38,040 nt of DNA from Hysterium pulicare CBS 123377 (lineage: Eukaryota; Ascomycota; Dothideomycetes; Hysteriales; Hysteriaceae). The notes beneath the pieces were generated by a model that was given only the letters and a program-made list of their open reading frames with translations, had not been told where the DNA came from and made no database searches. The stretch is from NCBI GenBank assembly GCA_000467715.1, contig AJFK01000229.1:1-38040 (forward strand), read 5' to 3'. The number at the start of each line of letters is the position of its first letter. Within the stretch, counting starts at the first letter, position 1. Shown piece after piece: positions 4,000 through 32,472 of the stretch. Position numbers and translations under genes: made by a program.

Positions 4000-6034
4000 T
4001 CAAACCGTTCCTACATCCTTCTCTTCCTTCTCTTCCCTACCTTCACCCTCCTTCTTCTCTTCGCTCTTGACAGCGAACCTACTCCTCGCCCTCAAGCTCT
4101 CTCCAAACCTCCACAAAGCCAACAACATGATCGCGCATCCCACGGTAAGCCCGCCTAGTATACTGACACCTTTGCCAATTCCCAAGTTGATCATCATGGG
4201 TCGCGAGAAATGGATTGCGCCGGCAGCGAGACCACTTCTTGCGACGTCGTTCGCGGCGAAGAGGGAGGCGGTGTAGGTTGGGTAGATGAGGGGGATGTAG
4301 AGGAAAAGGCCTGTGAGTAAAAGGGTTAGTCACCAGTAAAGAGCGAGGAAGCAAAATTAAGGGAGTGAAATCGCTTCTAAAGTGGAGGTCTCGAGGAAGA
4401 TTGTGATTAGGGGGGAGGAAAGCATACCTTGCACAATGTAGAAGATACCTCCTACCGTAAGTCCGATGCCAATAATAGGAGCGATCCAGTGAATGGAGGG
4501 GTTTGAGGTCCAAGCTGAGAAAGTCAGCAGGCGTACGGTTGAAGTGGAGATAGGCGGAAACATCGGACTTACCAAACATGAACATCCCAATAGGGACCAT
4601 CACGCTGCCTACGATAGCCACGCGTAATAAATCCTCCAGACGCCCAAGACCCTTGGTCGCTACGTGTCGGTCGATGGTCATGTACCAATAGAGGGCGTAG
4701 AGTGGCGCCAGAATGATGAGGGAGATAAGTACCGACAAGAAGACGAGGCCCGACTGTCCGAGGTTGAATCCGTACATGACAGGAAAAACCAGCGGCACGG
4801 ATTCGAAGAAGGAGTAAAAGATACCGTAGAGAAGCGCAGCTGGAGAAGAATTAGTATTCATACGGTCAGCCTTGTTGGTTCGGGCATACTGTAGACAGTA
4901 GAGAATAAGATGGCGGGATCAAGCGCGTTGAGCTCCCATGGTTCTGAGAAGATACGTTAGCTGACTTTAGTTGCTGATAGGATTCGAGGAACTCGTACTT
5001 ATCAAAGCATCGAAGATGATTTCTTTGGGGGATAGATGTTTTTGGTCGATCTCGGATTTGCTTTGTATGCTGGGATTGTTCAGAGTTCGCCGGAGGCGGC
5101 GCGCACGCCGCAGTAAGATAGTCGATGCTGAAGTCTCCGGCAAGAAGAAGAACATGACGAGAAACATTGGCCCCGAAGCCCAGAGCATCTCCCATTGAGT
5201 CCATCTCCAGTCCTCGGCTTGAACACTGAAGCCGGAAATAATGGGCCCAAGCGCGGGACCAAGGGTTGCGGAAGCTGCCCAAGCGATGACTATATACGGC
5301 AACTTCACTGGCGCAAACTAGTGGATGTTAGTTAACAACTAAAGCATCGTAGTTAAGCAGCTTACGAGATCTCCGAATGAAGCACCAGCCGTGGCCAGAC
5401 ATGGTGACCCAAAGAAACCCTGCAAAAATCTCAAAACAAGCAGACCAGGGAAGTTGTCGACGACTGCGCCAAGAAGGGTGAATATAACGAAGAGGCCAAG
5501 GGTTGGAACGTATGGTGGATTGCGCCCTATGATCGGGATTTCGCTCAACGGAGACCAGAGAATAGGTCCGACTCCGTAACCCACGACGTAGAGGCTGAGA
5601 CCCAAGGCGGCAGTGCCTGGCCCAACACCAAAATGAATCATAATATCTTGCTCGCTTGGCGCATAGATTGAAGAGCCGACGTATACCACGAAGGTGTAGA
5701 TGCACAAGACGAAAGCCACAAAGCATTTCTTCTTCAAACTCCACTGCTGGGGATTATCGGGATCGTCGGTACTGTACCACCCAACCAGGATCTTGCCGTC
5801 AGATGATTTGACGGGATGTAGAGTTCGATCATGTTTGTCGATATCATCCGTATCGGAAGAGGCAGATAGTTCGCCATCTGCGGTGAGGCCATCGACGTTG
5901 TCTGCCTTTGGAGAGCTCTCGGGGATCGGGAATGGCAGCTCGAAAGTGGAACTTTCGTCAACGAAATATTGTTCCTTGCTTCGTATGAGCTGGATTAGCT
6001 GTCCGAACGTTGAATCACGAATCAAGTCCAACAT
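4000..6034 (-). CDS. MFS drug:H+ antiporter, DHA1 (FLR1/Mdr1-like), six exons, 568 aa
   Basis: This is a proton-coupled efflux transporter of the fungal plasma membrane, in the DHA1 group that contains yeast Flr1. Exons read on the minus strand are 6034-5366, 5317-4999, 4943-4890, 4839-4573, 4514-4428 and 4310-4000. All introns have GT..AG ends and compatible phases, and the sum is 1707 nt. The N-terminus MLDLIRDSTFGQLIQLI and the ILVGWYSTDDPDNPQQWS motif just before TM1 are hallmarks of this subfamily. About 12 membrane segments are present, including GFFGSPCLATAGASFGDL (TM4-5) and the ALGPALGPIISGF-type sequence in the TM5 region. The tail is Lys/Glu-rich. It is divergent from gene A across 1.4 kb holding two CGG-N4-CCG palindromes. 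The substrate cannot be told. The gene looks intact. Confidence 0.9.
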
Positions 6035-6354
6035 GATCCTGCGCGTAGGAATCGAGGATGGTTGCTAGTTGAAGAAGGAAATATGACAATGAAGGGCGGT
6101 TGCCTCGGGGTTAGAGGTCTTTTAAAGGTCCCAAAGAGTGGGTACTTCATCCTATCTGCCTGTATGACTAAGAAAGCAACAACTGGTGAAATTTGAAAGG
6201 TACACGTTATGCAGACTCGGCGTTAATGTCGCCATTTCCGGGCTGAGAGATTATGCGGATACGATCTGCTATTCTGACCCATGGATCCACAAATTCATCC
6301 TTGAAATAGTCAGCTTTGAAATCAGGTATGAAAAGCATAAAAACAGTGAGCATC

Positions 6355-7339: not shown

Positions 7340-7348
7340 TATATAAAA
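7340..7348 (+). promoter_or_regulatory. TATA box of gene A
   Basis: TATATAAAA lies 87 nt before the start codon of gene A. A pyrimidine-rich stretch and a CA-rich leader follow, as in highly expressed or inducible fungal genes. Confidence 0.65.
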
Positions 7349-7434: not shown

Positions 7435-8177
7435 ATGCCACACTTTCCCGTTAGAAAGAAGCGTCCTCCAACCAAGGATTCTACTCCGAAAGAACCATCA
7501 ACGAAGAAAAAGCGCCGAACTCGCAGCAAGAAATCTCCTGGCCTTACACGCTCATCTTCTAACATGGACTTTCAGCAAGCTTCCGTTGAGGTGTCAAAGC
7601 CTTTCCGCCAACGAGAGGAGCCTATCCGGAAGCAGTGGGTTAATGTTAAATGGCCGAGCAAGTTGGAAATTGCTCAGGATCTAGAGACTAACGGCAGAGC
7701 GCCACGAGGTAATCCTAAGTTTGGTTCGACACCCTCTGCTGAGACCATGCCAGTTGAAAGCAATGGCAACAAGCAACTCATGCACCATGACTCTGAGTCT
7801 GAAGCAACGTGGTCAGAGTGCTCTGAGCCCGAGAAGATGGACCTAAGGGGCGACTTTAGGGACATCGATTGGCCCTCAAGTACTTCTTCAACAGCTAAGT
7901 CGAGCGATAGCTCGAAAGCTTCTCGTAAGAGACTTTCTATTTATGCCATCAAGCGAGTTGACGAGCTACTAAAGGTCGTCTAGTGAACTCCGATCTCTAC
8001 TTCAGCTCTCTATCCTTAGAACCCGACTTTGATTACTGCAGGGTGAAGAGCGACACACCGCCGCCCGTGGAGCGTGATGGTTGGGTCAAGCTCACGCATG
8101 TTCCAGCTGCAACAAACGGACAGCCGTTCAAACAGAAGCTTACGCAACCCCTCAAAAAGAAAGGGAAGAAGAAGTAG
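7435..8177 (+). CDS. array gene A: small basic/acidic protein, 227 aa, one intron
   Basis: Unrecognised gene. The start is ATG 7435, 87 nt after a TATA box. Exon 1 runs 7435-7924. A 59-nt intron (7925-7983) opens with GTAAGA, has a CTACTAAAG branch-like site and ends CTAG. Exon 2 runs to 8177. The second exon has no ATG of its own, so it is only readable if spliced. The N-terminus is strongly basic (KKKRRTRSKK, a likely nuclear or nucleolar signal), the middle is acidic and Ser-rich, and the tail ends in KKKGKKK. The motif ERDGWVKL (Trp 197) matches the acidic-W-x-x-[VIL] pattern found in B-F, but here ~30 residues remain after it. No signal peptide. Grouping A with B-F rests on position, TATA promoter, size and this weak motif. 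Confidence 0.6.
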
Positions 8178-9031
8178 TGATACTGCTGTTTGGCGTGTTC
8201 CCGCGCCAGACCTAAGCAGACGCTACTAAGGTGGGAACTTGGTACAACTGGATTTATGTGCTAGCATATGCTAGTGGTCAAGGTATATATTTCAACCGAT
8301 CGAGAATTAGGTTTGGGGGGCGATGTGGGAAGCTGGGTTGATGGGTAGTTTTGGCGCGGTCAAGTTGTTCGATCGCACACTAATGGGTATGCTGTAGCAA
8401 ACTGCTATTCGTAGGACTACGATGGTACCTATCAGTAATTACCAACAATGGTGCAATATCCTACCCCTCCATCATGGTATCGTATTGCTCATCTATGTAG
8501 TAACGTCAGCGTTTGAGTTTTGCTGTCTCCTCTGGGCCTCAGCGCTGCCACGATAGCTTCGCCTTCAAACGAACAGCTGAACATGTCCTACCTTAACCCA
8601 TCGACATATCATGGTGCACATACATATAACCCACTGTGCATTTGTTAGTTACTGAGTCTCTCTTACTGAGCTTCTCATTCCCTTGATTCGTACTTCTCAT
8701 CCGAAAGTTCCAGTTATGAAGGGGCGCATTCACTCATTTCGTAGCACCTGGATGGCGAACGCCATCGTGAATTCGAGGTGACACTTGTAATGAAATGAGT
8801 GGATCAACATGAAGCTGGGTGACATGCATAGTAGATCAGCGACCGGGAACACACGTTGTAGGAAGTTGACGGCTTATAAAATATCCTCTTCGCCTTATAC
8901 TCTTCTTCTTCTACACCATCGTGGAAAACCAACTGCATCGTGAACTCTCTAACGAAAAGCCTTTCCGCGATCTAAAAGTCAGCGACTTGATCATAAAACT
9001 CTCTATACGTACTTTGTCTAACATTGTGGAA
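8178..9031. other. intergenic region A-B with promoter of gene B
   Basis: This 854 nt stretch has no supported coding frame. Its last ~160 nt contain a TATA box followed by a CT-rich initiator region (CTTCTTCTTC near 8902) and the leader of gene B. Confidence 0.5.
8875..8881 (+). promoter_or_regulatory. TATA box of gene B
   Basis: TATAAAA lies 157 nt upstream of the chosen ATG of gene B. An earlier in-frame GTG at 8921 is not an expected fungal start. Confidence 0.55.
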
Positions 9032-9871
9032 ATGCCTACCATCTTCCAGAACGTGCACTCGTATGCACGCCCTTGGGTCCGCCATGGAAAGGATCTCGCA
9101 AAGCAAGCTTTCAAGACTGCGCGTGAGGTCCAAATAGTCAACCGAGCGGGAGCGGACCCCACCTCTTCCTCCTCTCCTTGCTCTAGTTCTCCACCCAGTG
9201 CAACAGCATCACCCTCGTCGGTTATAGTTAGGTCGTCCGCCTCGCCTAACTTTAAATCAACCACACCCGTCAACGTTCCGCGCCCGGGATCAGCCCGCCG
9301 CATCACCGCTTCGTCAATGCAGCGCAACGGCTCGCCTCTGGCGCAATGGGAGTTTGTAGCGCATCCACTGAAATGCGTGGGATATGTTCAGGGTACTGCA
9401 AACCCGATCATGGTGCCCTTCTCCGACCCGCGAAGGGAGGTGGTCCAGGTTAATCCTGAGTACTTGCAGAGCTGGCTCGACAACGCCTTGCAGGCCCGGA
9501 CTGTGGTTCTTAGCAAGAATGGGCCGACCTCTTTCGGTATGCGGATAGATGCTCCTGCGGGACCCTCCGAGGGAAGTGGGCAAAAAGTGAACTATACGCG
9601 TAAAGCCAGTTACGGGACCGTTGGCAGTTTTGGAAGTCTGGGAGATGTGAGTCTTACGGGGCTAAGTGTCCACACCATCGAAGATTACTTTGATGAAGAT
9701 GAAGGTAAGTTCACTTATCCGCCGAAGAAGTCCTGCATCTGTGCTGCGCCCGATCCTGATAGTAAGATAGACTACCCTGTCGCTCCTCTTGGAGATGAAG
9801 AATGGACGTGGATAGCAGCGGAGGAGGCCATAGAGCGGGACGGACATCTCCAAGTTCCCATTCGTTGCTGA
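9032..9871 (+). CDS. array gene B: Ser-rich protein with acidic-Trp tail, 279 aa
   Basis: Unrecognised gene. The frame is open from 8921, but the first ATG is at 9032 and gives MPTIFQNVHSYARPWVRHGK. Residues ~45-95 are Ser/Pro low complexity. A more ordered region follows, from LAQWEFVAHPLKCVGYVQG through a Trp/Asn/Gln-containing stretch (~residues 108-160). Near the end, GDEEWTWIAAEEAIER (Trp 258) aligns with the tails of C-F, but the protein continues ten residues past the common end point. A perfect GTAAGT at 9705 with an AG at 9770 would remove 66 nt in frame, so an optional or constitutive small intron there is possible; it would not alter the tail. No signal peptide or membrane helix. 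Confidence 0.6.
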   Translation: MPTIFQNVHSYARPWVRHGKDLAKQAFKTAREVQIVNRAGADPTSSSSPCSSSPPSATASPSSVIVRSSASPNFKSTTPVNVPRPGSARRITASSMQRNGSPLAQWEFVAHPLKCVGYVQGTANPIMVPFSDPRREVVQVNPEYLQSWLDNALQARTVVLSKNGPTSFGMRIDAPAGPSEGSGQKVNYTRKASYGTVGSFGSLGDVSLTGLSVHTIEDYFDEDEGKFTYPPKKSCICAAPDPDSKIDYPVAPLGDEEWTWIAAEEAIERDGHLQVPIRC

Positions 9872-10554
9872 GTCCAGTAGCTGTAGTATAAAAGTTAAAT
9901 TTTGCCTGAATAAGGTAAGTACTCCCAACTATGAGCGCTGCCTCGTAGATAGACCGCGTCTGCCCTGCGCGCAGTGCTAATCTGTAGACAGATTTTCTCT
10001 TCCGGGTTGACGTACTGACGGAGGTGTTTCCCGAGTCATGGATTCGTCCCGTCAAGAGGAATTTTAGAGCCGTGGTGCGAGTGAGTACTTCGACCTCCGT
10101 AGGTTGTGCCCGGCATGCACCTTCTCATATCTGGGAGCTAGGATGGCTCTTCAATGTCCAGCAAGAACACATCCAATTATCTGCAGCCCTCTGATTCCGG
10201 CGTTGCGGAGGTATTTAGTGGTGCGGCCACTACAGCTTCCGCTCCATGATGGATACCTCGGACCATCCCTCGATACCCCAGGCCTGGCAATAGGACATAC
10301 TCGATGACGGCGTTATAGTTCGGCATCATTCTGATCTTCTAAGTTTTCTTGCCAACACTTTCTCTTCATTTTCTTAACGAATTCAAAAGTCTTATAATCT
10401 TTCAAAAGCGGCGGTGTTGTAGGTTCGATGAATTATGGATGTTGGTAGTAATGTAAACACAGGAGATAAAAACCGAGTTACCGGGGCGCATCGACGTTGC
10501 TTATTATCATGCTTTCAATTAAAGTTCATCTGTCTCATCATCAGCACGTCAATT

Positions 10555-11104
10555 CTACTCAGTTGTGGCTGACCTTTCTTTCTCCCAGCATTTCTCCAAA
10601 TCGCCAACCCCAATGGATGCCACATTAATGGTGCTCGAAAATTGTGTATGCCTAGCTCGTGCAAGGTTTAAAGTGTTCACATCAATGTTCCCACAGTGTG
10701 AGCAGCCTTGAGGATGGTTCTGCGCTAACTCTGACGTGAGTTGAGCAATAAATGGATGGAGGTTAGGGTCAACGAGTCGAGTCAGTCGCTTTGCAGCTAC
10801 ACCAGATGGTTTGCATAGTACAATGCTCAAAGTTTGCTTACATTATGCTTGCTTTTACCTCCACCACGCACGTGTCCGAAGTCGGGGAGATCTAGTTGAT
10901 TGTTAGTATATCTGCTCTGAAGAACTGTGACTGACCTTCTTCGCAATTCCTCCCAGACTTTAGTCCTTGAACTATCACTCCTGCTGATCGAGTGTTGCTA
11001 CTCTGCTACCAAAACTAACTGCTGTATCTTCGCGGCGTGTCCTGGGACCTTCGCGACCTCGACGCTACTTGTTTGAACTTGCTTCCTGACCGATCCAGTC
11101 TCAT
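10555..11104 (-). CDS. possible small spliced gene, unassigned
   Basis: Weak candidate. On the minus strand an ATG at 11104 opens MRLDRSGSKFKQVASRSRR. Further down there is a very good 44-nt intron (10935-10892) with GTCAGT donor, TACTAAC branch and CTAG acceptor, followed by coding-like LPDFGHVRGGGKSKHN. A last open stretch ends at 10555 and contains CSHCGN and a Glu/Lys-rich end. The joins between these parts need at least two further introns whose ends I could not place with consistent phase. It could be a real small gene, a decayed one, or chance. No function is suggested. Confidence 0.22.
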
Positions 11105-11514
11105 GGCTACTAGGAAAGTGTTCGTAGCAAATTGAAAGAACGCATATATCAAGGCGTCCCGCTTCCCAACCTTTCGACTCGGGGAGCCATGACCTTCAAC
11201 CAACAACATCAATCTTTAGCTATTGTGGTCTGTAGCCTTGTTTTGCGTCTACCTGGAGTACTTTCCGCAAGCCATAACATGGTATATGTTGTTTGGTGGC
11301 TGGTGAAGCTCGATGCAGCCTCAAATTGCCCCCTTCCCGCCTCGTGATGGCTCTAAACATGCACGATTGCGCCAGTGGCATCGTCCGTGAAGCTACCTTG
11401 GCCCTTGCAGCATGATTTGAAGAGGCGGACCTGTGTATCCCGTCGGTTATTAGCTGCAAGCTGCATGCCATTCTCAAACGAAGTTTTCGTGACCCGGCAG
11501 CTGGCGGGGAGGCC

Positions 11515-11522
11515 TATATAAA
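11515..11522 (+). promoter_or_regulatory. TATA box of gene C
   Basis: TATATAAA lies 85 nt before the ATG of gene C, with the same spacing style as gene A. Confidence 0.65.
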
Positions 11523-11606
11523 TGCCCAATTTTCGAGACTATAGAAACACCATCGACGCTACAACATTAACCACGTCAGTTTCTCGATTACAAATCAATC
11601 AGGGAC

Positions 11607-12417
11607 ATGTTTACCATCGGAAATGCCGACGGTACTGGTTGGTGGTTGGGTCCCGAGCCTGGCGATGAATCGCAACCAGTTCATCCTGGTTATGTGACAC
11701 GGTTGCCATTCTGCGGATGCAATCTCTTCTCCATTGCTTTCGAGGAGACTTGCCCACACGGCTACGGTGGACTAAAACCCGACCCCAGTACTCCCAAGCT
11801 TATTCCAAAACCTTCCGGTCTGCGCCTCAACTCAACGTCCTTCAAGCCGGGCCACAAGGAGCATCGCCTTTCTGTAGCTTTTCTGAGCATTCAGGAAACC
11901 AGCCCTACGATCGAACAAGTTGTAAGTAGCCCTTGTTATTCACGAGGGCCAGCTAAGGAGGGAAATGCAGCTTGGAAGGCTCTGGTAAAACTGACGGCAA
12001 GCAGAATCTTCGTGTGTCTGGTATGGTCCGAGGTCCTAAAGAATCTTCAACTCCAAAAGCTCCTGAGCGCGATGGTCATTCAAAGTAAAGCAAACCGCAG
12101 TCAAAATTCAGAAGACCAAGCAGTCCCAGACTATGAGAGGTACTTACTATTCATGCGGCTCTTACGAACTAGGAAAGGCGGCTTATACCATCGCAGATTC
12201 TCCAAAGAGCGCTTCAATCAAGAGTTCGGATGACGCCCCTGTCACTCTGAATACAGAAACTTCAACAACAACATATGATGAGTGGAGCAATGAGAGCGTC
12301 AACAGTTCGGATGCTAGCCATGATGGAGATTTCGAGGAAGAAGATGAACTGGCGAGTGAGTCGGGTAGTGAGGAGGACTGGCGTTGTGTGAACGCCGCCG
12401 ATGCCTGTTTCATCTAG
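11607..12417 (+). CDS. array gene C: GTGWWLGPEP-type protein, about 200 aa, spliced
   Basis: Unrecognised gene, paralogous at its N-terminus to gene D: MFTIGNADGTGWWLGPEP versus MFTVGNPDGTGWWLGPEP. Exon 1 is 11607-11921, ending at a GTAAGT donor in phase 0, the same phase as the first intron of D. The last exon ends at 12417 and encodes a very acidic, Ser/Thr-rich region finishing GSEEDWRCVNAADACFI, with Trp 11 residues from the end. The simplest phase-correct model is a single intron 11922-12129 (acceptor TCCCAG), giving 200 aa. An alternative middle exon starting at 12005 after a CTGAC branch site is coding-like, but I could not connect it in frame to the end. The middle of this model is therefore uncertain and partial decay cannot be excluded. 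Confidence 0.55.
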
Positions 12418-12646
12418 TAGATGGATTGCTCCATTGATTCATTCTCGGGACGTCTTCGATCTAAATGAATTTGCCTGATGAACTGGCCCCCAGGATGACA
12501 TGTGGCAAGAGAGTTGTGGTGTCACTGTTTATTGAATTAGTCTATAACTAAATTCTATTCATCAAATCCAAGTCAGGCATAGAGCTTCTTACTATACGAT
12601 TCTATCCATGTTGTGGTGCATGAATTGCATTCATCTGCAGCTGCCT

Positions 12647-12660
12647 TCCGCGTGACCAAA
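12647..12660 (+). promoter_or_regulatory. 14-mer shared with the promoter of gene E
   Basis: TCCGCGTGACCAAA lies 17 nt upstream of the TATA-like box of gene D. Gene E has TCCGCGTGACTAAA at 13749-13762. This may be a common upstream element or chance; no factor is assigned. Confidence 0.3.
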
Positions 12661-12676
12661 TTCCCCACAAAAAGAG

Positions 12677-12684
12677 CATAAAAA
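12677..12684 (+). promoter_or_regulatory. TATA-like box of gene D
   Basis: CATAAAAA lies 65 nt before the ATG of gene D, in the position held by TATA boxes in the neighbouring array genes. It is a weaker match than the others. Confidence 0.45.
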
Positions 12685-12748
12685 CACCTAACCATTAGCT
12701 GCACAAAACGCCATCCCGATCAACAACCCAACAACAACCCACCCAAAA

Positions 12749-13411
12749 ATGTTCACGGTAGGAAATCCCGACGGCACAGGCTGGTGGCTCGGGCCAGAGC
12801 CGGAAGACTCTCCTTCGTTCATAGGACGTCCTCGCACTGTAGCCAACAACGCTTCCAGCATGCATGCTGCTGCTGGTACAGCCAATTGCTACCAGAATCC
12901 ACACGCCGGAGTGGGTCGCGCCTCGTCGTACGGTCGACCTGTCGCACATGGTCATTACAATCCCGAGGTAAGTCTCCTTAACCTGTTTGGCGTTTTGTAA
13001 ATGTAGCAAGTCTGACGTGTACACGCAGGCAGATGAGTCCCCCCGGGTTCGGCGTTGCTTTCCGGCTCGCCCACCAACTGGCTATCCGCAAGGGAAGGTT
13101 TCAAGCAAGAGTAAGGTCAAATTCAAAGGCTGGGCGAAAGACACGATCGCGCAGACAAATCTCGTGCAGGGTAAGTTCGAGGGATTCGTAGCAATGACCT
13201 TGCAAGTAAAGCTAACAGCCGTACAGAGGAGCCCAAAGTCGATAAAGGCGCAAACGGCAGCGAACAAGCAGAGAAAGGACGTAAGACGGACGAGCAGAAC
13301 CCTACGACTGAGGTTGCTGAGGAGAAGTTGAAGGAGGTCCAGGATGACACGGAGCCACTCGATGGAGAAGAGTGGACTCTCGTTGGTATCAACGAGGGGA
13401 CCATTAATTAG
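12749..13411 (+). CDS. array gene D: GTGWWLGPEP-type protein with WTLVGINEGTIN tail, 181 aa
   Basis: Unrecognised gene with three exons: 12749-12967, 13029-13170 and 13227-13411. Introns of 61 and 56 nt both open with GTAAGT and have CTGAC and CTAAC branch sites; phases are 0 and 1. The N-terminus MFTVGNPDGTGWWLGPEPED is shared with gene C. The centre is Gly/His/Asn-rich and then basic (KVSSKSKVKFKGWAK). The last exon is a Glu/Lys-rich probable helix ending DGEEWTLVGINEGTIN, Trp 170, 11 residues from the end. Eight residues of this tail (VGINEGTI) are identical in gene E although the rest of the two proteins is unrelated. No signal peptide; likely cytosolic or nuclear. Confidence 0.72.
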
Positions 13412-13960
13412 GTCAAGTCAGTTAACTTCCACTCAGCACACACTTGGTCTTTTTGCTTGCGGCAAATCTTTGTATAGACTTGTCTTGACGAGAATGCCGC
13501 ATTGTTAAGTGTAGCATCGGCAAAGTAGTGGCAGTACAATGTTGGTTATCCTAATTCTAGGGATGTTGCCATGTATTCAAGCTTTGTTCCAATAGATAAT
13601 GGTGCCCAAGCCTAGGTCATAGTGAACCATTAGTTCAAATCAAAAGCGAATGGTGGTAGAATGATATCAGATTTAACTCACCGCTATCACAAATGTAGTT
13701 TGAGGTATAGAGTGAATTATGCTCCGAAGAGGCCCTGGACCAACCCGCTCCGCGTGACTAAAAGCGTCCGGTTGGGAGGGCGAAAGTGTGATTCTATGCC
13801 CTACGGTTCGTAGATAGTCTGGTCACCAATTATAAAAACTGTCGAATTCACACCAAGGTTAGGTAGAACAACACTTTCGGATTCTCACCACCCAAACCAC
13901 CCCTCCAACTTCACATCAACGGCCTTTCCTCTGGATGTGAATGAGCTCGACTTAATCGCG
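13412..13960. other. intergenic region D-E with promoter of gene E
   Basis: This 549 nt stretch has no supported coding frame. It contains the 14-mer shared with the gene D promoter (13749-13762), and a CCAAT box directly abutting a TATA box at 13826-13837. Confidence 0.5.
13826..13837 (+). promoter_or_regulatory. CCAAT-TATAAAA promoter of gene E
   Basis: CCAATTATAAAA places a CCAAT pentamer immediately before TATAAAA, 124 nt upstream of the ATG at 13961. CCAAT is the site of the Hap/CBC complex in fungi, but direct abutment to TATA makes simultaneous use uncertain. Confidence 0.55.
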
Positions 13961-14666
13961 ATGTCCGAGAATCAGAATTTTCGTGACTCTGCAGACGAGC
14001 AATCCGAGGGAATTTCGCAAAGCGTATCAGCTACGGGTGCAGCCCCAACACCACGAAAACGGACTCTTGATGATTACTTGAGAGAACGCCTTCATCCTGT
14101 GCGCGACCACTTAAGGCAATTGATGGAAGCCAACACAGAGAACTATCCTCTCAAACATGAGCAATTGCCAATACTCAGAGCTGAACTTCTAGCCGTGGGG
14201 AAGTTTATCTGTGATCGATTTCAAACGCGACCACATCTTGTGATGGAGCTCTGGTAAGATTAAGATGAGGTCTTGTTGCGCACATGAATATTAGCTGATT
14301 GCGTCCAGGGGTCTTGTCGCTCGCAACTACTGGCCTAGCGAACATTTGGATGCAGATCGTATCAAAACTTTGTATGAGAATTATGCGACTGAAGGAGCTT
14401 CCGAGTCCATTGTGACCTTGGATGCTACAACTTGCAGCCATGTTCGCGACGCCAGCGCAGAGCGGGAGTTACTCGGACTGGATCGCAAGCTTTTCCAAGA
14501 TCCGGTGGACTTCATCGAAGCAAATTGCAGGCTCTTCGGAATCACCAAGACGGAAGAGCTACTCGAAGAGTATGTCGACGTTCCTGACCTAGAGGATGAA
14601 TTAGACAGGATGGAAGATGAAGAAGAGTGGGTTTTCGTTGGCATTAACGAAGGAACGATCAGGTAG
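13961..14666 (+). CDS. array gene E: single copy of a new ~85-aa module plus WVFVGINEGTIR tail, 216 aa
   Basis: Unrecognised gene. An earlier GTG is open, but the first in-frame ATG is 13961 (MSENQNFRDSADEQ). Exons are 13961-14253 and 14309-14666; the 55-nt intron interrupts a TGG codon in phase 2. Residues ~40-125 form a module also found twice in gene F: YLRERLHPVRDHL, LMEANTENYP, ELLAVGKFI, then MELW, the intron, GLVARNYWPS and IKTLYENY. It is predicted helical, with conserved Trp-Pro. The rest is Leu/Asp/Glu-rich, with EEYVDVP and a final DEEEWVFVGINEGTIR (Trp 205). Frame, phase and similarity to F support the exon model strongly. No signal peptide or membrane helix. Confidence 0.78.
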
Positions 14667-15174
14667 GCGGAGTAGGATTCATCCGGTCATGCGGGACCGG
14701 CTTCAAGTAATGAGTGCGAGTCGATGAGTTCGAGAATGTGGTTTTGGAAAACACGAGGCTCTATTAATGACCGGAGAGTCTGTTGTCGTGAAAAGTACCG
14801 AGGTCTACATCATGTAAAATATTAGCTCAATGAAATTGAACAAGGCTCCTTGGTCAAACCTGTTAAAATCTTGCTTATACCATGTATCACTTGCAAGCAT
14901 CCCAAAGGCAGATTGCTGCAGCCAAATAACGCTAAATGTTTACTCTGGGCATGTAGGTGACAATATTTGTCAACTCGAGGTAGCCATAGTGTGAATTGCG
15001 TTCATTCACTGATTTAAGGTCGGCTGTGCCGTGATTCAGGTCCTGCATCCGTAAGTCACAGAATCACCACTTACAGCGCATATAAAACGCCACCACGTAC
15101 GTACAGTCCCTCCCATCAAACTCGATCCAAAAAACCCCAAGCTTTTACACCAACAACCTTTCTTCCAATCAACC
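14667..15174. other. intergenic region E-F with promoter of gene F
   Basis: No coding frame seen in 508 nt. The last ~100 nt carry the ATATAAAA box and an A/C-rich leader before the ATG of gene F. Confidence 0.5.
15080..15087 (+). promoter_or_regulatory. TATA box of gene F
   Basis: ATATAAAA lies 88 nt before the ATG of gene F, close to the spacing in genes A and C. Confidence 0.65.
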
Positions 15175-16554
15175 ATGTCCACGAGCAACGCCAAGGAGAA
15201 CTCAGGGCTTGCATCCGAGCACCTCAAGGAGAGCCAATTATCTCCCGGATACATCAGTGCGAGGCTTCAACCCGTTTATGATAAGCTTTGTCGACTGAGG
15301 GATGCCACCGAGGCACAATATCCTGTCATGCAGGATCTGTTAGAGGCTCGACAGAAAGAGCTGATTGCGATTGGGAACCATATTCGCAAGGATTACCGAG
15401 ATTGCCATGAGGACCAGATTTGGTAAGTGACAAGTCCATGAAATGCTGAGCGGCTCTTTTGGTATCATGGAATACTAACACACCTTAGGGCATATATTAC
15501 TCGTCATTATTGGCCGGATAAAACAGAGACAGGCAAGTCAGTCCGGAGGATGTACGACCAAATTACCTTGCTGGATCCAATTCCCGACTCAGCTCTGTCG
15601 TCAAATAAGCAGGCTGAGGCGACACTTCGAGGACCTTCCGGTGAAGCGGCTTGCGAGAAGACAGTTGCGCCCGATGATACTGATGACAAGCTTGTAAAAG
15701 CTGTTCATAAGCTGGGGTTGGAGACCCCGAGCCAATCCAGAATCCAGAATCCGATACATGAGCAGTACCTGGAGGGTTTACCTGAATCCGTTCGTGTCAG
15801 CCTTCATCGTCTGCGAAATGCAAACTCCCTAAACTTCCCAATCGACAAGCATCGAGAAGTAGTCATCAGATGGGAGCTTGTCAGAATAGGCAGGTTTATC
15901 TGTTGTAAAGAGGAAGCGAAGTCTGTTGATGAAATGGACCTCTGGTAAGATTGGGAATCCTTCTCGAAGTCGCATTTGGAAAATTTAACTTCATCTAGGC
16001 AACTCGTTAGTGATTGGTGGCCAAGCAAGCAGGATGTAGCTGGTGTCAAAAACTTGTACAACAGCATTGAAATTTCCTACAGAGATATTCAACTTTACAA
16101 CAAGGTAATGTCAACACGAACTGGTTCTGCGACTACTGGAGCGGATATAAAGGCTACGGAGGGCAAAGGCAAGAAGCGTCGGCGAGTCGGTAAGTCGTAT
16201 GCTATCAGTAACCTTAGACTTGAAGCTGATGGTTGCATAGGAACTAAGGCGGATATCTCAGCTGCAAAGACAACGAGGAAGGTGCAAGATCCTCCACTCG
16301 TTCCTAAGTCTGAAGCACAGATCCAAGCTCGTATAGCCAGGCAGCAACAATCCTTGTTGGTGCAGCAGCAAGCCGTGATGGACCGCAAAATGGAAGAAAA
16401 GTTAGCAGAGAGGCATTACGCGAAGATAAGCAATGAGAAGCAAGCTGTAGTGGACGACTACATCGAGGTTCCTCTCAGTGACAATGAGCGTGGTGCCGAG
16501 GAGGACGAGGACGACTGGGTCTTCGTTGGTCCCGACGAGGGCAAAATCATCTAA
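15175..16554 (+). CDS. array gene F: tandem duplication of the E module plus WVFVGPDEGKII tail, 402 aa
   Basis: Unrecognised gene with four exons: 15175-15422, 15489-15944, 15999-16189 and 16241-16554. The first two introns each split a TGG codon in phase 2, exactly as in gene E, and each lies at the same place in one copy of the module. Copy 1 (residues ~20-110) reads YISARLQPVYDKL, LIAIGNHI, EDQIW, then HYWPDK and VRRMYDQI. Copy 2 (~195-285) reads YLEGLPESVRVSL, LVRIGRFI, MDLW, then DWWPSK and VKNLYNSI. After this come a basic KGKKRRRVG patch, a Gln-rich helix (ARQQQSLLVQQQAV), DDYIEVP and the acidic tail DEDDWVFVGPDEGKII (Trp 391). The third intron (51 nt) is in frame either way. Probably cytosolic or nuclear. 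Confidence 0.78.
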
Positions 16555-23885: not shown

Positions 23886-26079
23886 CTAATCCGACGGTCC
23901 CATAACCTCCATTCCCTTCAAAAGATCCTTGAATTGCTCGCCGAGCGCCTCTACCACTTTGTCCATTTTAATCTCCTCCTTGCCCACCTTTCTCTCATCC
24001 TTGGCGCTACCTATACCACCTTCCAATCCATCGCCATTGGTACCCTTCCCTTTCCTACCTCTTCCATTGATCAAACTCACCTTCCCGCCTTTATCCATCT
24101 CTCCCTTGACTTCCCAACCTCTCCTTACTCTGCCTGATTTTGTCGCTGGTGTTATCAGCGTGGCATCAAGCAGGGCGTGCCAGCGGACGAGGTAGATTCC
24201 GGGTCCATGGGTTGTATTGTGAGAGGTGGGTGAGAGGATGGATTTCAGACGATGAAGAGAGGATTTCTTAAGCTGAGAAAGATGGTTGGAATGATGATCT
24301 AGTAGGGGCAACACCGATTCTTGGGTTTCGGTAGGGAGCGTGGTAAAGAGGGTACTGAGGATGGGCGTAAGAGCTCCAGCGGCAGGTTCGGAAGATTTGG
24401 TTGGTGTCGGATCTGATGTCGAATTGTCGTGGTTGGTTTTTGGACTGGGAAGCGAGGACGTTGGTGGAGTTGACGGTTCACGGAATTCGGCTACACATGC
24501 TTTGGCGTACTCGCGCCACTGATCTGTGAGCTCTGGGGCGTTTTTCGCAACTTGATGGAGGAATTTGTGGGATGAAGGGATGTGTTTCCGGAGTAGTGCT
24601 ACGTAGTCTTCTACAGAAGGGAGGTGATTCGATTCGTTGTCTGGCTTTTCGAGGCCGTTCTTGGCATGCGGAGCTGGGCTGTTGCTTCGACTCCCAGGTC
24701 TGCTACCTGTGTCGTTGTTCTTGTTTTTAGGTTTGCTGGTCTTGATTAGATCTGTGATGAAGTTCTCTGCGTCTGTTATGGTGCCAGACAGATCGACGGC
24801 GTTGTGGACGGAGCGGATGATGGGGTCATATGCGGAGACTAGATCGCGGATAGCAGAGGTCAAGAGATCGGGCTGGAGTTTGCACAGAATCTTTGTCAGT
24901 TCTTCTCGGTCTCTTATAGATAAGAGAGTGGAGTAGTATTCGAGTGCTACATCATGTTGATGGTCGGAAAGATCCGAGATGTCGATGGATGGGGAAGCGG
25001 ATTCCAAAATCTCGGTCACTATGGATTTTGACTCGGAAATACTCTTCTCACGAGTAGATTCGTGGTTAGGGCGAGACGAGTAGACATAAGACTTTATGGC
25101 TTCGAAGGCTTCTTTTGAGGGAGCGTCAGGTGTCTTGGAAAGTTTTGTGGCGCGTTTTTGGAACTCCGAAGTATCCCAAGCCATTACTTGGGACATTATT
25201 TGCTGCAACAAATTCATTCCATCGTTGGCATTGTTGCTTAGACCCATCCAATTCGTGATCGCCCCAACGCTCAGCTTGGTGAGGACCAATCTCACCATTC
25301 CGTTTATCATTGTTGCAGCGTTTCCCACTCTCAGCGTCTGCCGTATCATCATGTATGGAACGAGCCGATTGATATTCTCGATGAGCTTAAGGAGATATTG
25401 GCCGTCGGGCGACATAACAAAGACGTGATGCATGAAAGATGCTAAGCTGCGCTGTATTAGTGTGTGCTGCATGGAAGGAAGGTATATGGTCCTACTTCAG
25501 AAGTATGTATTCATGTGCGCCCTGCACCAAAGGCGAATGATCCTCCAATTTCGATGTCTTGGCCGTCTTCTCAAACAGCTCATCCAATGAGTCTTCGTAT
25601 ATGATCTCCTGCAAGAGGTCTTCCCATGCTTGTTGTACATGCTCAGCTTTGGAGGTATCATACTTCCTTTCGGTCGTCTCCTTCTCTTTCTTGGGATATC
25701 CACCGAGGACTCCTCGGGCCACATATTCCAATATGGCGGAAATAGCCGTAGCCAGGGTCTTCCGGGATCCAATAGCGCCCTTGTCATAACTTTCCGACAA
25801 TTCAGCTTCTGCGAGCTTTGCCACCAACGCCTGGCATTTGTGCTGCCAGAAGTCGAGCGAGATAGTATTCAGACCCGGCAATCTCAGGACAAACTTGTTC
25901 AGCAGGTTCTGCAGAAGGGGACTCGCTGTTTGTACTCCCTCCTCTTTCTTGAATGGGTAGCCGTAGTGATCGATGGCAGAGGGGGATTTGAAGTTCTCGA
26001 TCTCGGCGTAGGTTTGGTGGTGGACGAGGATGTCGAAGAGAGCGTGCGCCTGGGCTGGCGACAGAGTAGAGGGAGACAT
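23886..26079 (-). CDS. PXB / DUF3818 (PX-associated) protein without evident PX domain, 714 aa
   Basis: The N-terminal ~130 residues match the PX-associated domain PXB (PF12828): LSPAQAHALFDILVHHQTYAEIENF and LLQNLLNKFVLRLPGL. From about residue 185 the protein matches DUF3818 (PF12825): HHVFVMSPDGQYLLKLI, VGNAATMINGMVRLVL, GAITNWMGL. Exons are 26079-25496 and 25446-23886. The 49-nt intron has GTAGGA, CACTAATAC and GCGCAG, and the phases join cleanly as LLN|LASF. ATG 26079 gives MSPSTLSPAQ, the expected domain start. Relatives usually also carry a phosphoinositide-binding PX domain, and yeast Lec1 is linked to lipid and membrane contact biology. I see no PX signature here. The C-terminal 200 residues are Ser/Pro and then Gly/Lys-rich. 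Confidence 0.85.
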
Positions 26080-26818
26080 GAGGCGGTTGGAGTGTGGAGG
26101 GCATGGTGAAGGTCGTTGGGCAGGTGAGCGTGTGGTGTGGCAGCTTGGAAGGTGAGGCCGACTCCACACGTCATGCCGCCGGAATCTTGAATTGCTCTTG
26201 GCGCCCTAGACTCTCCGCAGTTTGGCGTGGCGAAGTCAACGCGAACCTCGCTCCGCTTCACTTTCCGCCTTTCACCATACGCCTTTCACCTTTCATCTTT
26301 CCCATTCATTGTTCGGTGCATCCAGGTCATTCCATTATCAGCTTCGTGGAGCTGGTGTGTTCGTTGCGCTAAGTACATCTGTCAAACGCGGGCAAATATA
26401 AACCAGTGGAAACCCAGAAAGGAGACAGCCAAAGTGAGCCAAGTAATCCAAGCCAAGCAGAAAGCAAAAGAGAGCCAAATTAGGCCTAACCAATCTCAGG
26501 GAGGAAGAAAAGGGGATCCAAAGGAATCAAACCAAAGAGAAAGCAACGGTGAGGAAACGTGAGGCAAAGTCGAAGAGCATTTTTCCAGCCAATGCACCTT
26601 GCCCAGCAACCGGTACCCAAAGAAGACTGTAAAGGAAAATGGTTTTCTGCAATCAAGTAGTCAAGAAGGCCAAAGCAACCAAAGCAACAACACATCTTCC
26701 GAGCCGCATGCTTCGACCCTCGTCCAGACAACTGTTCCCACTCCGAATCAAGAAGCTACCATAGCCTCGTATGGCGTAAACACATCAATAAGCCTTTCGT
26801 ATCCCCTCCGTAGACGAA
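26080..26818. other. spacer upstream of the PXB gene
   Basis: This 739 nt stretch holds the promoter and leader of the PXB gene and the 3' region of the BTB-like gene at 26819-27835. A-rich and AG-rich tracts lie at 26400-26550. No supported coding frame. Confidence 0.5.
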
Positions 26819-27835
26819 TTAGATGGCCACGGCGGGTTCGTTCTCTTGGGTTGCAGTGTTGGTGAAGTTCCTCCTAACCCCCAGTCTTCGCATCTCTAGG
26901 GGCCGCACATGCGGGACGTGGCTGTACTGGTAGAATTTTTCGATCTCCACGTACAGGCGCGGTTGGCTCTCGGGCCACGGAGCAAATGGCTGTGAGTTCC
27001 ACACGAGCTGTTTCAATAGAGTGTTGAAAACGTCATCCAGGTACGTCTCGATCTCATAACTGTCTGCCATGCGTCCTCCTCCGCGCATAATCTGCTGCGC
27101 TGACGTTTTCTTCGCTTGGATCAAGTCGGAAATGGGGGCTTTCCAGGAGTAAGAGAATGTGGCGATGTTGGCGGCCATTAGGCAAGCATATTTGGTCGGT
27201 GCCCATTGGTTCTCTCGTTCCCAGACTGCCTTGATCTGTTTTAGGCGCAATGGGCTCACCATCATTCGTTGTCCAATAGCGTCGTCTAGCGCCAAAGCCT
27301 GTGCCGTCATTCCCAAGAGTCGAAAAGCGTCTGAAAGGCCGATGTAGATGCTGACATCCCCCAGCACTTTCCAGGGAAGTGTGACGAAGTTTGCGTGATT
27401 GCAGGCCTGCTCCATGTAGAGGACTGCAAGCTTCATTGACAGCGCGGTTGTATATCCGTCTGGGAATTGGACTGCCATCCTACCGTGCCGAGGCTCCAAG
27501 AATCGACCGATCTCTGGTGCGAAAAGGTACATAAGGGGCTTTGGTACTCTCTTGTGAAGTTTTGTGGCGCCAAGCCAAACATCCAGATAGGGACCCTCTT
27601 GGGCGATTTTCTTGCGGTAGATAGCTTGATATCGGTGCAGTTCTGTGATGGTCCCATTTCCAATTTTGATGCGGTACTGAAAGGAGTCTAGGTCACGACG
27701 TACTCTTCCCCGGAGCTCCTGCACAAATCCAGGGAGTTGCGCAACTGTCGGAGGACCCCAAACCAGGACTGGTGGCATAACGAAGCTTGCGGCTTCGGGA
27801 TTATACTCACTGTGGTAATAGATTGTAGGGAACAT
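26819..27835 (-). CDS. divergent BTB-like paralogue 1, 338 aa
   Basis: Member of the BTB-like group that fills the right part of the window. The frame is open upstream, but the first ATG is 27835 (MFPTIYYHSEYNPEAA). Residues ~83-112 (EGPYLDVWLGATKLHK, PLMYLFAPEIGRFL) follow the BTB/POZ plan of strand-turn-strand then helix, without the usual conserved His. The characteristic second part follows: a KLAVLYMEQACNH helix, IYIGLSDAFRLLGM, LRLKQIKAVWER and APTKYACLMAANI. The C-terminus is basic, ending NEPAVAI. Family knowledge: such lineage-expanded BTB-like proteins are common in Leotiomycetes and Dothideomycetes and mostly have no known role. Single exon, apparently intact. Confidence 0.65.
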   Translation of the reverse strand: MFPTIYYHSEYNPEAASFVMPPVLVWGPPTVAQLPGFVQELRGRVRRDLDSFQYRIKIGNGTITELHRYQAIYRKKIAQEGPYLDVWLGATKLHKRVPKPLMYLFAPEIGRFLEPRHGRMAVQFPDGYTTALSMKLAVLYMEQACNHANFVTLPWKVLGDVSIYIGLSDAFRLLGMTAQALALDDAIGQRMMVSPLRLKQIKAVWERENQWAPTKYACLMAANIATFSYSWKAPISDLIQAKKTSAQQIMRGGGRMADSYEIETYLDDVFNTLLKQLVWNSQPFAPWPESQPRLYVEIEKFYQYSHVPHVRPLEMRRLGVRRNFTNTATQENEPAVAI

Positions 27836-28313
27836 CTTGGCTAGGAGCAATCTCGGAGGGTCAGAGAATGGTGTTTGTGGTGGATGGGATGTCTCAAGTG
27901 ACGCGGGATGGTAGGTAACCAAAGAGGTGACACAGACATTCCATCTGCCGAAGTTCTCCCTACCCTCCCGAAATCAGCTTCCGACGGTGTCCATAGAACG
28001 ATTAGGCTCTGGGAAGTGTTTAAAAAGTTCTATTTGTCTATAAGACTATCTCACTGTACAGTAAGCCTAGATTTCTATTACACTTCCTTTAAAAAAGTCT
28101 TCTATCCTATTTTCAAGGTCCTAGAAAAGGTTTCCCATTAATATTCTCTATCCTGGGTCCTTTATAAAGTATGCTAGTTTCCGTGTACTATTTCCATACT
28201 CTCACGTCCAGATCATCTACTATTTTAGTCTTTCCCCAGATCCAGTCTACTGCAAACCCGCTTTATCATCAACTGTATATCACCAATATCTCGAGTTCTG
28301 CGGGGTCATTTGA
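27836..28313. other. AT-rich, CpG-poor spacer
   Basis: No coding frame. From 28001 to 28181 there is not a single CpG and the text is rich in TA and TATA-like words, unlike the flanking genes. This may be a mutated repeat remnant, but no element can be named. Confidence 0.45.
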
Positions 28314-29366
28314 TCATTTCTCTTTCCGATCGAACCTCCCCAAGATTTGTGCTGCCCGTGGATCACCCCATCGCATATGATTGCCCCGTCGCTCCCTCTC
28401 CGGAAACGCTCCAGCAGCCCGTCCCCACCAGTTCGGATCCTTGACCAGGTTGTTCAACGCCTCGTTTCCTGGCCTCTCCAACCAGTAGTACACGAGGTTG
28501 TCCCATCGACTCACTGCGTATGTGCCATAACGCTTCGTGGATCTTAGAAGGGGTATAGTTAGTATCTGCTTCAAAAGGGAGTTTTAAGCACTCCCAGAGC
28601 CCGCTTAATGCTTTCGCTCTCAAGTGTTTCCAGCTCGACATGCCACTGGAGAGGTGTTGCTGTAGGGACTCATACATGGTGGATATACAAAGACGGAAAC
28701 CTGGTATTTATAACCGGACTTTACTTACATGTTTTCTGCAACCTTCTGCACCCACTCGGAATTCACGTCCTTCTTTTCCATCAACCATACATCCTCGATT
28801 TGCTCAAGTGGGAGCTTGAAGACGCGCAGGTATCGACCGATTCCTTGGTCTAGCCGACTCACTTCCCGTCCCATGTTGAACAAGCTGAAGACTTTGTGCA
28901 TACGCACTGCTTTAGGCATAGGAAAGCGCTTGTCGTGGACGTAGAAGTCTTCATTGTAGACGTGCGGGGCATAGACGCACAGTAGCATCCAATCGATGAC
29001 CAGATCAATGGACTCCCGATCCGTGGAGTTTGGTGGGAGTTGGATAACGCGCGTGGATGAGCCCTCCACTTCTTCGATCCAGCGAACAAGATTCGGCGCA
29101 AAGAATAACAGAAATTGTAGAGACCAGTGTGGCTCAAGAAGGATTTCGCTATTATGCTCGATTTGCACTTTTGGCTGTGACTTCAGAATCTGGTCGCGTT
29201 GTTCGGTCGTGTAGGAAAGAAGGATGTCTCCAACGCGCTGGAGTGGAGCTCGCGAGTAGGTGGAATTTGCTGTTGGGGCTGGGTCTTGTGGCGAGCCAGG
29301 GGAGTTACTCAAGGCTTTCTCCTCAAGGGCCGCGAGAGTGACTCTGCGAGGAGTACGATTCGACAT
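28314..29366 (-). CDS. divergent BTB-like paralogue 2, 288 aa, one intron
   Basis: Start ATG 29366 (MSNRTPRRVTLAALEEKA). Exon 1 is 29366-28729 and exon 2 is 28542-28314. The 186-nt intron has a GTAAGT donor and a perfect TACTAAC branch site before a CTAAG acceptor; phase 2 joins as VAEN|I|STKRYGTYAV. The C-terminal exon (SRWDNLVYYWLERPGNEAL, then DPNWWGRAAGAFPERERR) clearly reads as protein and aligns by pattern with KYTYFMIKNMHIKY of the 36293 gene. N-terminal BTB-like part: VQIEHNSEILLEPHW, LLFFAPNLVRWIEEV; then LVIDWMLLC, MHKVFSLFNMG and LEQIEDVWL. The AAG acceptor is unusual, so a different short exon arrangement within the intron is possible. Confidence 0.6.
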
Positions 29367-30425
29367 TGTTGTGAGGCTTAAAATCAATTGCGAGGTCGAG
29401 TGTGTCGTTAAAAGGCGTGTTGTGAGCTTTCGGAACAATGAATAGCTTTTTGAGCTGGTTTGCCTGCCCAAGTCAGTGCAGAGGACGATTGTGCTGCCAA
29501 AACGCGGACTAAACCAGCAGTCCTTTAGGGTCCTCAGTTCTCCTTTGCGTGAGGATTGCCTTCCAGGTAAGTCAATCTTGCTCTCGAAAGCTTCCCGTGT
29601 GCTTTCTGTTGTTTTCAGGCGTACGGAAGAAAACTTTGGCTTCTTGTGTCGGACCCAACGCGAAAGCTCTTGGGAATTTTCTACCAGTGAACCCAAGTCT
29701 TCGCAAGTCTATTGATATGCTTCTAGCAATGTTGGTATCTATATGGTAAGAATATGAGGCTGTGAATAGTCTTCTAGCTTGCTTGTTCACCACTGTCAGT
29801 CCAGAGGGCGACGTTTGCAGGAGTTAGGAGTTGATGTACCAGCAGCGACTTGGTGAGTCTAAATTGTATTTCTTCTACCGTCAAGGCAGCCCAATCCTGC
29901 TCTTGAAAGCCTGCGGAGCGGCGTTTATAGCTGCAGCGTCAAACGTAGCTGGCACTGAGAAGTGGCGCTGCGCACAATCGCCGCAGCTGATCTATGCGAA
30001 CATTCACATAAGCTAACTGCATCAGAGGCTCGAAGACAAGGACTTTTCTTACCGGCTTGTTGAGTGACTTGCCCTGGCGACGCCGAAGGACCCCCGTAGA
30101 GGTCGGGGGGGTAGGTGGTGAGGAAGAGAGAGCAGGTGAGGCGGAAGAAGTCTTGGCACAACGAGGCCCCCCCAGGTCCTCTGTTCGAAGTGTCTCGATT
30201 GATTGATCGTCAGCGCAAGTTTGTAGCACCCTGCTACATCACTACAAGCAGAAATCAAGCAGTGTGTAAGTGAACTGAATTCCTTGCCCCCTGGCAATGA
30301 TACTGAAAAGACTGGTTGGGCTAATTTTGGACTAGGACGAATCGCGAGGCCATCTTTACGTTCTATTGCAGTCTTCCTCCGGTGTCTGAAATACGAGTAC
30401 ACGCCTCAGGTCCTTGGAAACAATC
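29367..30425. other. gene-poor spacer
   Basis: This ~1.06 kb stretch has no supported gene. Several open frames exist on both strands but start with GTG/TTG and lack splice support. Confidence 0.45.
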
Positions 30426-30958: not shown

Positions 30959-31386
30959 ATACCCTACTCGTACAGAGAGCGAGGCCATTGAATTGCCATT
31001 GGCGGCTTGAGCAGTTGGAGGGTAATTGAACTTCAGGGTTACGAGGGAAAGTTGAGATGGAGAAGTCGCAGTTCAGAACACTCGTGTCTGCGTGAGTGAT
31101 AGCTTCACAAGCAAATGTGAAGTATTAATAGGATTTCGGTAACGTTATTGAAACACAATTTCAGGCAGATGATTCATTGACCTCAAAATTCACTGATAGG
31201 CATGAACCGATTCTCGCAGCCCGTCCTAACATCCCTACTACATATTTAATGACCTTAACTCTCGATACGCCCTCCCCATCTACCTCCTGACACCAACCCG
31301 CTATACACATACCACAACTACCCCATTCCCCACCTTGAGATCATTTCAATCAATCAGAACCAAAGAAGCCATCTCGTGGATTCACA

Positions 31387-32472
31387 ATGAACAGCCCACC
31401 GCCTATCCTCACACTCCCTGAGCCAGAACGCTTCGCTGCTATATCAGCTAAACCTTACATAAACATTCACACAGGAACCTCGATAATATACCGCAGCCTC
31501 CCCAAGCCCGTTCTCCTAGCCTTCGCACCAGTCCTCGAGTCTCTCATGAGCCCGCTCTCAGACATGATCTTCCTAAAACAAGATGATGGTATCCCCACAA
31601 TCACATCTAAGGAGGGAGAAATGGTCCTAGATTGGATCTCGGACGTTGTGCGAGATCCCAAGAAGTATAACGAGGGATGGGATGAGACGGGAAAGCAAAA
31701 AGAGGAGTTACCAAAGCTGATTGCGCTACACCGTGGCTTCGTCGCGTTTGCAATGAATAAGCAAGATCAGGAGATACGAGAAATCATCATGGCCCGAATG
31801 ATCAACAAAGAGTTGTACGCTACGATTCTTCGTACACTATGGGATGCAGAACAAGCGCGATGGGAGGATAAAGGGATGGAGAAGAATGTTTATGTGAGGC
31901 TGATGCTGTGGAATATCCGCAAGTATGCACTCGGAACGTTCTTGAACAATAGCTCGGGCAACGAGCGCTGGCGGAAGAAAATCCTGGAGTTCGTGGAGAC
32001 TGAGGAGACCGGGTTCATAAAGGAGTGGTTGAAGGAAGAGGATCCAGAACTCGAAGCTTCAATTAAGCAGTGGAGCAATGCTCGGACTGTTCAACGATTG
32101 ATTGACAATGCCGGGAAGCAGATCCCCAAAACTCCTGCTCGACCGTCAGCACAACTTAAACCGAAACAAGTTCCTGAGCACTCGAAGAAGTCGCATAACC
32201 GGGCCGGACAAAAGAGTAACGCCCCACGTCCTACGCCGGAAGAGTATGCGGAGGCAAAGAAGAAGCTTTTCGAGAACATCAATGAGTGGGTACAATATCG
32301 AGATAGTATCCCACTTAGAACGGCGGAGATGTTTAGAAAGAAGAGAGAAGAGTGGGAGAAGGAGGAAGAATCGGCGGTGAGAATGCTTAGAGGCGAGATT
32401 GAACAAAACCTGGATGAGGAAGGTGCTGAATTGGAAGACGATAAAGATGAGATCAAATGGAGGGGATGGTAA
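31387..32472 (+). CDS. divergent BTB-like paralogue 3, 361 aa
   Basis: Single-exon gene, ATG 31387 after a CA-rich leader. It is the only intact member of this family on the plus strand. The BTB-like part is YINIHTGTSIIYRSLPKPVL and LAFAPVLESLMSPL (~residues 24-60). It continues with MVLDWISDVV, LIALHRGFVAFAMN and a helix around TILRTLWDAEQARWED. The C-terminal third is long, charged and probably coiled: AEAKKKLFENINEWVQYRD, then RKKREEWEKEEESAVRML, ending in an acidic DDKDEIKWRGW. The basic Pro-rich linker between them (~250-285) is disordered-looking. No membrane segment. Function unknown. Confidence 0.7.
   Translation: MNSPPPILTLPEPERFAAISAKPYINIHTGTSIIYRSLPKPVLLAFAPVLESLMSPLSDMIFLKQDDGIPTITSKEGEMVLDWISDVVRDPKKYNEGWDETGKQKEELPKLIALHRGFVAFAMNKQDQEIREIIMARMINKELYATILRTLWDAEQARWEDKGMEKNVYVRLMLWNIRKYALGTFLNNSSGNERWRKKILEFVETEETGFIKEWLKEEDPELEASIKQWSNARTVQRLIDNAGKQIPKTPARPSAQLKPKQVPEHSKKSHNRAGQKSNAPRPTPEEYAEAKKKLFENINEWVQYRDSIPLRTAEMFRKKREEWEKEEESAVRMLRGEIEQNLDEEGAELEDDKDEIKWRGW

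Follow-up and report, generated by a model that had tools for sequence, protein, structure and literature searches.

On contig AJFK01000229.1 of the ascomycete Hysterium pulicare CBS 123377, six consecutive genes (A to F) lie on the plus strand between positions 7435 and 16554. The window analyzed here is this whole contig (38,040 bases, C181), the fungus's own genome amounts to 37.2 Mb in 596 contigs, and all results are drawn from that single genome together with Pfam, PDB and papers in open access. By their sequence, genes E and F encode free-standing proteins with a CHCT domain, most likely copied at the DNA level from the terminal domain of the fungus's own CHD1. In addition, D, E and F end in a common acidic peptide built around a Trp, of which B and C carry less exact versions.

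The gene models bear out the layout put forward in the initial annotation, namely six genes on one strand without signal peptides. By eye, none of the six models opens with a hydrophobic, signal-peptide-like stretch, and those of A, D, E and F have GTAAG donors and in-frame exons. Gene A (7435-8177; exons 7435-7924 and 8020-8177) encodes 215 amino acids with a basic N-terminus and has no paralogue in the own genome at an E-value of up to 10. Gene B (9032-9871; 279 amino acids) is one open exon; a stretch of 66 nt within it (9705-9770, GTAAGT..TAG) keeps the frame, is free of stops and may be an intron or an optional intron. Searched against the own genome, B finds only itself besides one match at an E-value of 0.99, and its fold predicted without alignment is of no use (predicted local distance difference test score, pLDDT, 35.5). 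Gene C (11607-12417) has two uncertain internal introns and a last exon that is open up to the stop. Gene D (12749-13411; exons 12749-12967, 13029-13170 and 13227-13411; 181 amino acids) finds, at an E-value of up to 10, only itself and C. Gene E (13961-14666; exons 13961-14253 and 14309-14666) encodes 216 amino acids with one CHCT domain, and gene F (15175-16554; exons 15175-15422, 15489-15944, 15999-16189 and 16241-16554) encodes 402 amino acids with two. The third intron of F (16190-16240, 51 nt) is also in frame and stop-free.

All six proteins had been described as unrecognised, which holds for A, B, C and D, where no Pfam family scores above its cut-off, and fails for E and F. As spliced proteins, E matches PF13907 (CHD1-like_C, the former DUF4208) with 54.1 bits (E-value 2.1e-14) and F with 68.9 bits in two stretches (E-value 5.5e-19), the Pfam cut-off being 28.3 bits. 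When the unspliced genome is searched with the same profile, three places are listed: CHD1, the E exon (37 bits, above the cut-off) and the first exon of F (24.2 bits, below it). The domain occupies 14066-14378 in E; in F, the first copy lies at 15256-15558 and the second, with approximate limits, at 15760-16071. The own CHD1, located on another contig (C447), is matched by E at an E-value of 3e-9 and by F at 5.4e-6. A PDB search with E alone yields no relative (best E-value 0.085); when the four CHCT copies, including that of the own CHD1, are combined in a profile, residues 1377-1462 of yeast Chd1 are found at an E-value of 1e-6. On viral contigs, seven stretches fit a CHCT pattern and none of them codes for a relative.

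The exon structure points to the origin of these domains. One Trp codon, at the same place in all four copies (E, both domains of F and CHD1), is interrupted by an intron after its second base, and this intron-split Trp is invariant in the alignment of the four. Because the CHD1 intron has been retained, the copying would have occurred at the DNA level, and the terminal domain of the own CHD1 is the most likely source. The copies in E and F are old, since identity among the four is 24-36%. Apart from this domain, present once in E and twice in F, the resemblance to CHD1 ends: no chromodomain, SNF2 ATPase or other Pfam family scores above cut-off in E or F, so that neither qualifies as a CHD1 remodeller, and the own CHD1 ends in GQAHGA-stop, without an acidic-Trp tail (as judged by eye, and provided that there is not another intron beyond). 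The small human protein C17orf64 is also called CHCT1. Its DUF4208 offers another instance in which the CHCT/DUF4208 domain is named outside a remodeller (PMC10137952), as in E and F. In a limited literature search, covering parts of the papers, fungal CHCT proteins of the stand-alone kind were not mentioned.

The second feature is the tail. In D, E and F, the last 12 residues follow the pattern W-x-[FL]-V-G-x-[ND]-E-G-x-I-x-stop, preceded by acidic residues: EEWTLVGINEGTIN-stop in D (13367-13411), EEWVFVGINEGTIR-stop in E (14622-14666) and DDWVFVGPDEGKII-stop in F (16510-16554). Gene C ends in EDWRCVNAADACFI-stop (12373-12417), which is weak outside its EDW..V core, and B carries the copy EEWTWIAAEEAIER (9797-9838), after which 10 more residues follow. 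Thus the Trp stands exactly 11 residues before the stop in C, D, E and F, as the initial annotation had noticed, and 21 residues before it in B. This placement is hard to obtain by chance: shuffling the last 60 residues of each protein 20,000 times puts [DE][DE]W..[VIL] there not once for C, once for D, 3 times for E and 7 times for F. Across all six frames of the window (open reading frames, ORFs, of at least 40 codons), this motif followed by no more than 25 residues to the stop occurs five times, in B to F only.

The strength of the likeness differs among the genes. The B stretch fits the profile of the D, E and F tails with P 0.002 (500 shuffles of B). C fits it with P 0.0005 over all 14 residues, and the last eight residues alone give P 0.11. 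In the alignment of C to F, just two columns are invariant, the Trp and the Val three places on. Leave-one-out scoring was applied to 185,940 stop-free stretches, taken from the window together with 39 further loci (156 kb), of which 33 had been chosen beforehand for the motif. Here D (40.7), E (45.0) and F (31.3) stand out from the best stretches past the top four, which score 21-24. B ranks sixth with 24.3, behind two stretches besides the three tails, and C, with 15.8, is one of 38 stretches at or above that score. In A, the best stretch fits the tail profile with P 0.65, and 14% of the shuffled A sequences contain W-x-x-[VIL] with one or more acidic residues among the three positions before it, so A was rejected as a tail carrier. 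The tail is thus beyond chance in D, E and F, with good support in B and fair support in C; for A, membership by tail is not supported, and A belongs to the array by its position, strand and TATA box. The motif had been claimed for all six proteins, in A as weak and internal; the claim survives for B to F in this graded form and falls for A.

The tails were also compared at the nucleotide level. Over 8-9 silent sites per pair, the changes per silent site (pS) and per replacement site (pN) are 0.68 and 0.15 for D and E, 0.71 and 0.24 for E and F, and 0.52 and 0.32 for D and F; comparisons of C with the others give pS 0.49-0.94 and pN 0.41-0.52. In the D/E pair, most silent sites have changed while the protein has been kept. 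The same is seen at the other end of C and D, which by their sequence are relatives. Their first 22 residues (MFTIGNADGTGWWLGPEPGDES in C, 11607-11672; counterpart in D at 12749-12814) are 77% identical (E-value 9.9e-6), with pS 0.89 and pN 0.16 over the 22 codons. Gene D, with an N-terminal block like that of C and a tail like that of E, is the clearest case of a common tail on a different body. Of the idea of a common tail with interchangeable N-terminal parts, the presence of one tail on different bodies is supported for four genes (B, D, E and F) and probably holds for C as well, with A left out. The bodies had also been called unrelated, which is partly wrong: E and F are both CHCT proteins and C and D have their first 22 residues in common, leaving a few body types (C/D, E/F, B and A).

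Genome-wide, the tail appears to be restricted to the array. Pattern 1 ([DE][DE]W-x-h-V-G, covering W-x-[FLIMV]-V-G) occurs at 19 places in the own genome against 4 for its reversed control, and pattern 2 ([DE][DE]W-[AIMTV]-[FL]-V) at 20 against 11. Together they mark 36 distinct places, and a stop 11 residues after the Trp is found at three of them, which are the adjoining genes D, E and F. At none of the 33 places outside the contig does the stop stand 11 residues on (at one, L049, no stop lies within the locus), and a genome-wide tail family was rejected. Likewise, the 20-residue tail of E retrieves only E and D at an E-value of up to 10. In the forms searched, the tail is thus a local feature of the array; tails like those of B or C would escape elsewhere, since the patterns cover only two forms around the Trp. 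Because both patterns exceed their reversed controls, acidic-Trp stretches are not rare in this genome, and other real ones may exist. As candidate gene ends, ORFs at three loci (L051, L053 and L066) terminate in EDWVFV-stop, DEWAFVES-stop and EDWTLVTDQRLSELR-stop, differing in length and sequence.

E and F have a second motif in common, [DE][DE]Y[VI][DE]VP, realized as EEYVDVP in E (14565-14584) and DDYIEVP in F (16453-16472); in both, the Tyr precedes the tail Trp by exactly 19 residues. At the DNA level, the pattern is found at two places in the 37.2 Mb, E and F, and nowhere in the control. The last approximately 37 residues of E and F are 41% identical in protein searches. With second motif and tail both present, the C-termini of E and F can be regarded as a two-anchor acidic unit; by eye, D lacks the second motif.

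The upstream regions give the array a common layout as well. TATA[AT]A lies 60-170 bases upstream of five of the six genes, starting at 8875 (B), 11515 (C), 13831 (E) and 15081 (F) and spanning 7340-7347 for A, whereas none of nine other starts in the window has it; D has only CATAAAAA, at about 12677. A first-order Markov null expects 0.052 per region, giving a binomial P of 2e-6, which is generous because the pattern was chosen afterwards and the nine other starts are ORF starts only. No 8-mer is common to at least four of the six 500-base upstream regions. This layout agrees with the view of the initial annotation that the genes may form one functional group.

Tentatively, we propose that the array encodes nuclear adaptors, which form a local set sharing one tail peptide and in which E and F act through CHCT. 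Their CHCT domain would dock on the partner used by the CHCT of CHD1 itself, Rtf1/Prf1 of the elongating polymerase. The tail would be an exposed acidic peptide with one aromatic anchor, or two in E and F, that binds a common partner, and B, C and D would carry that same partner to other sites or compete for it. In the parts of the literature available, CHCT is described as binding Prf1/Rtf1, with binding of an N-terminal helix reported for Hrp3 (PMC13075793), and the CHCT-binding part of the Rtf1 N-terminus as the region called the LLALA box (PMC13289920, PMC13075793). Since CHCT binds Rtf1, free CHCT proteins could sit at, or compete for, the place of CHD1. If E and F do bind Rtf1, they would naturally modify how CHD1 is recruited to genes that are being transcribed.

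As for the tail partner, we lean, at low confidence, toward chromatin because of the CHCT domain. For E and F, our guess is that a contact with histones (H2A-H2B) would be the most likely, because their other domain is of a chromatin type and histones are bound by acidic tails that have such aromatic anchors in pairs. Examples, from the available parts of the sources, are Y476 and W485 of APLF and two aromatic residues of Pol alpha with eight residues between them (PMC6166128, PMC9328677). The acidic domain of APLF and the N-terminus of Pol alpha resemble E and F in having an acidic stretch with two aromatics (Tyr and Trp in E and F), yet the fixed pattern W-x-x-V-G-x-[ND]-E-G-x-I is longer, and histone binding of E and F is putative. 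Several points weigh against the adaptor proposal. The aromatics of APLF and Pol alpha are 9 apart (Y476 and W485; F58 and Y67) compared to 19 in E and F, B, C and D lack a recognised chromatin domain, and the tail is known from one species. Moreover, the silent-site estimates stand on about nine sites per pair, and the TATA pattern was picked after the upstream DNA had been viewed.

A possible alternative, to which we give somewhat less credence, is that the tail is an Atg8-interacting motif (AIM/LIR), in which W-x-x-[VIL] lies as a strand on Atg8, the proteins being autophagy cargoes or receptors. In AIM/LIR motifs such as LTWEEL of Atg19, W-x-x-[LIV] follows acidic residues, and the Trp and the Val three places on are exactly the two invariant columns in C to F. 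The xLIR expression, taken from PMC5119064, a source that in its available part itself warns of false positives, fits EEWTLV (D), EEWVFV (E) and DDWVFV (F), and the stricter cLIR fits twice each in E (EEYVDV and EEWVFV) and F (DDYIEV and DDWVFV). However, xLIR also fits DGWVKL of A, misses EEWTWI of B and EDWRCV of C, and arises in 8-32% of the copies when the six proteins are shuffled. Neither does an AIM/LIR account for G-x-[ND]-E-G-x-I in D, E and F, where conservation runs 7-8 residues past the core.

It is unlikely that the tail serves proteins of unrelated roles, either as an activation domain of the acidic-aromatic type or as a degradation signal. Activation domains typically have acidic residues around W, F and V, as does the tail, but to our knowledge neither kind of element depends on a precise pattern of 12 residues or on a constant spacing from the stop. 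In addition, B, C and D have no known DNA-binding domain, because no Pfam family scores above cut-off in them.

A decoy system appears very doubtful. Here, the free CHCT proteins would compete with CHD1 for Rtf1, and LLALA-like tails of D, C and B would bind to the pocket of a CHCT domain, be it in E, F or CHD1. The reported binding of CHCT to the LLALA box speaks for it, as does the start of the own Rtf1, MADADIDDELFALAGGEDE, which by eye likewise runs from acidic to hydrophobic residues and then G. The likeness of the tail to the own Rtf1 N-terminus is nevertheless not above chance (P 0.41 when Rtf1 is shuffled and 0.40 when the tail columns are permuted), and LLALA-box mimicry by the tail was rejected. 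Equally improbable are local duplicates in decay with tails as functionless relics, for although the array is local and A, B and D find little beyond themselves in the own genome, silent changes per site far exceed replacement changes in the D/E tails and the C/D block, and the models of A, D, E and F show no broken reading frame or splice site.

Returning to the adaptor proposal, a bolder version of it, which we regard as decidedly unlikely, is that the end domain of CHD1 was made into a local system. In it, an exchangeable tag on CHCT and other bodies would spread between neighbouring genes; E and F would bring the partner of the tag to transcribed chromatin marked by Rtf1, and B, C and D would bring it to other places. 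Whatever its partner, the tail, which sits on dissimilar bodies within a single row of genes, gives a concrete example of neighbouring genes with a short peptide in common.

Elsewhere in the window, five ORFs form a second local family (26819-27973, 28725-29708, 33591-34157 and 36293-37255 on the minus strand, 31339-32472 on the plus strand). In blastp against a database of these five only, best E-values are 2e-9 to 6e-9 with approximately 20-28% identity over long stretches, some pairs being weak. No Pfam family scores above cut-off in any of the five, and a common stretch like [ML]V[IL]-x-W-M-x-x-A-C is visible by eye. Between the array and this family, adjoining minus-strand ORFs at 23889-26205, perhaps one gene, carry PXB and DUF3818 (PX-associated) domains. 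Upstream of gene A, the N-terminal part of an MFS transporter lies at 5342-6064, and the next frames on the same strand (4082-4918 and 4869-5327), which have no family match, may be its broken or intron-split remainder.

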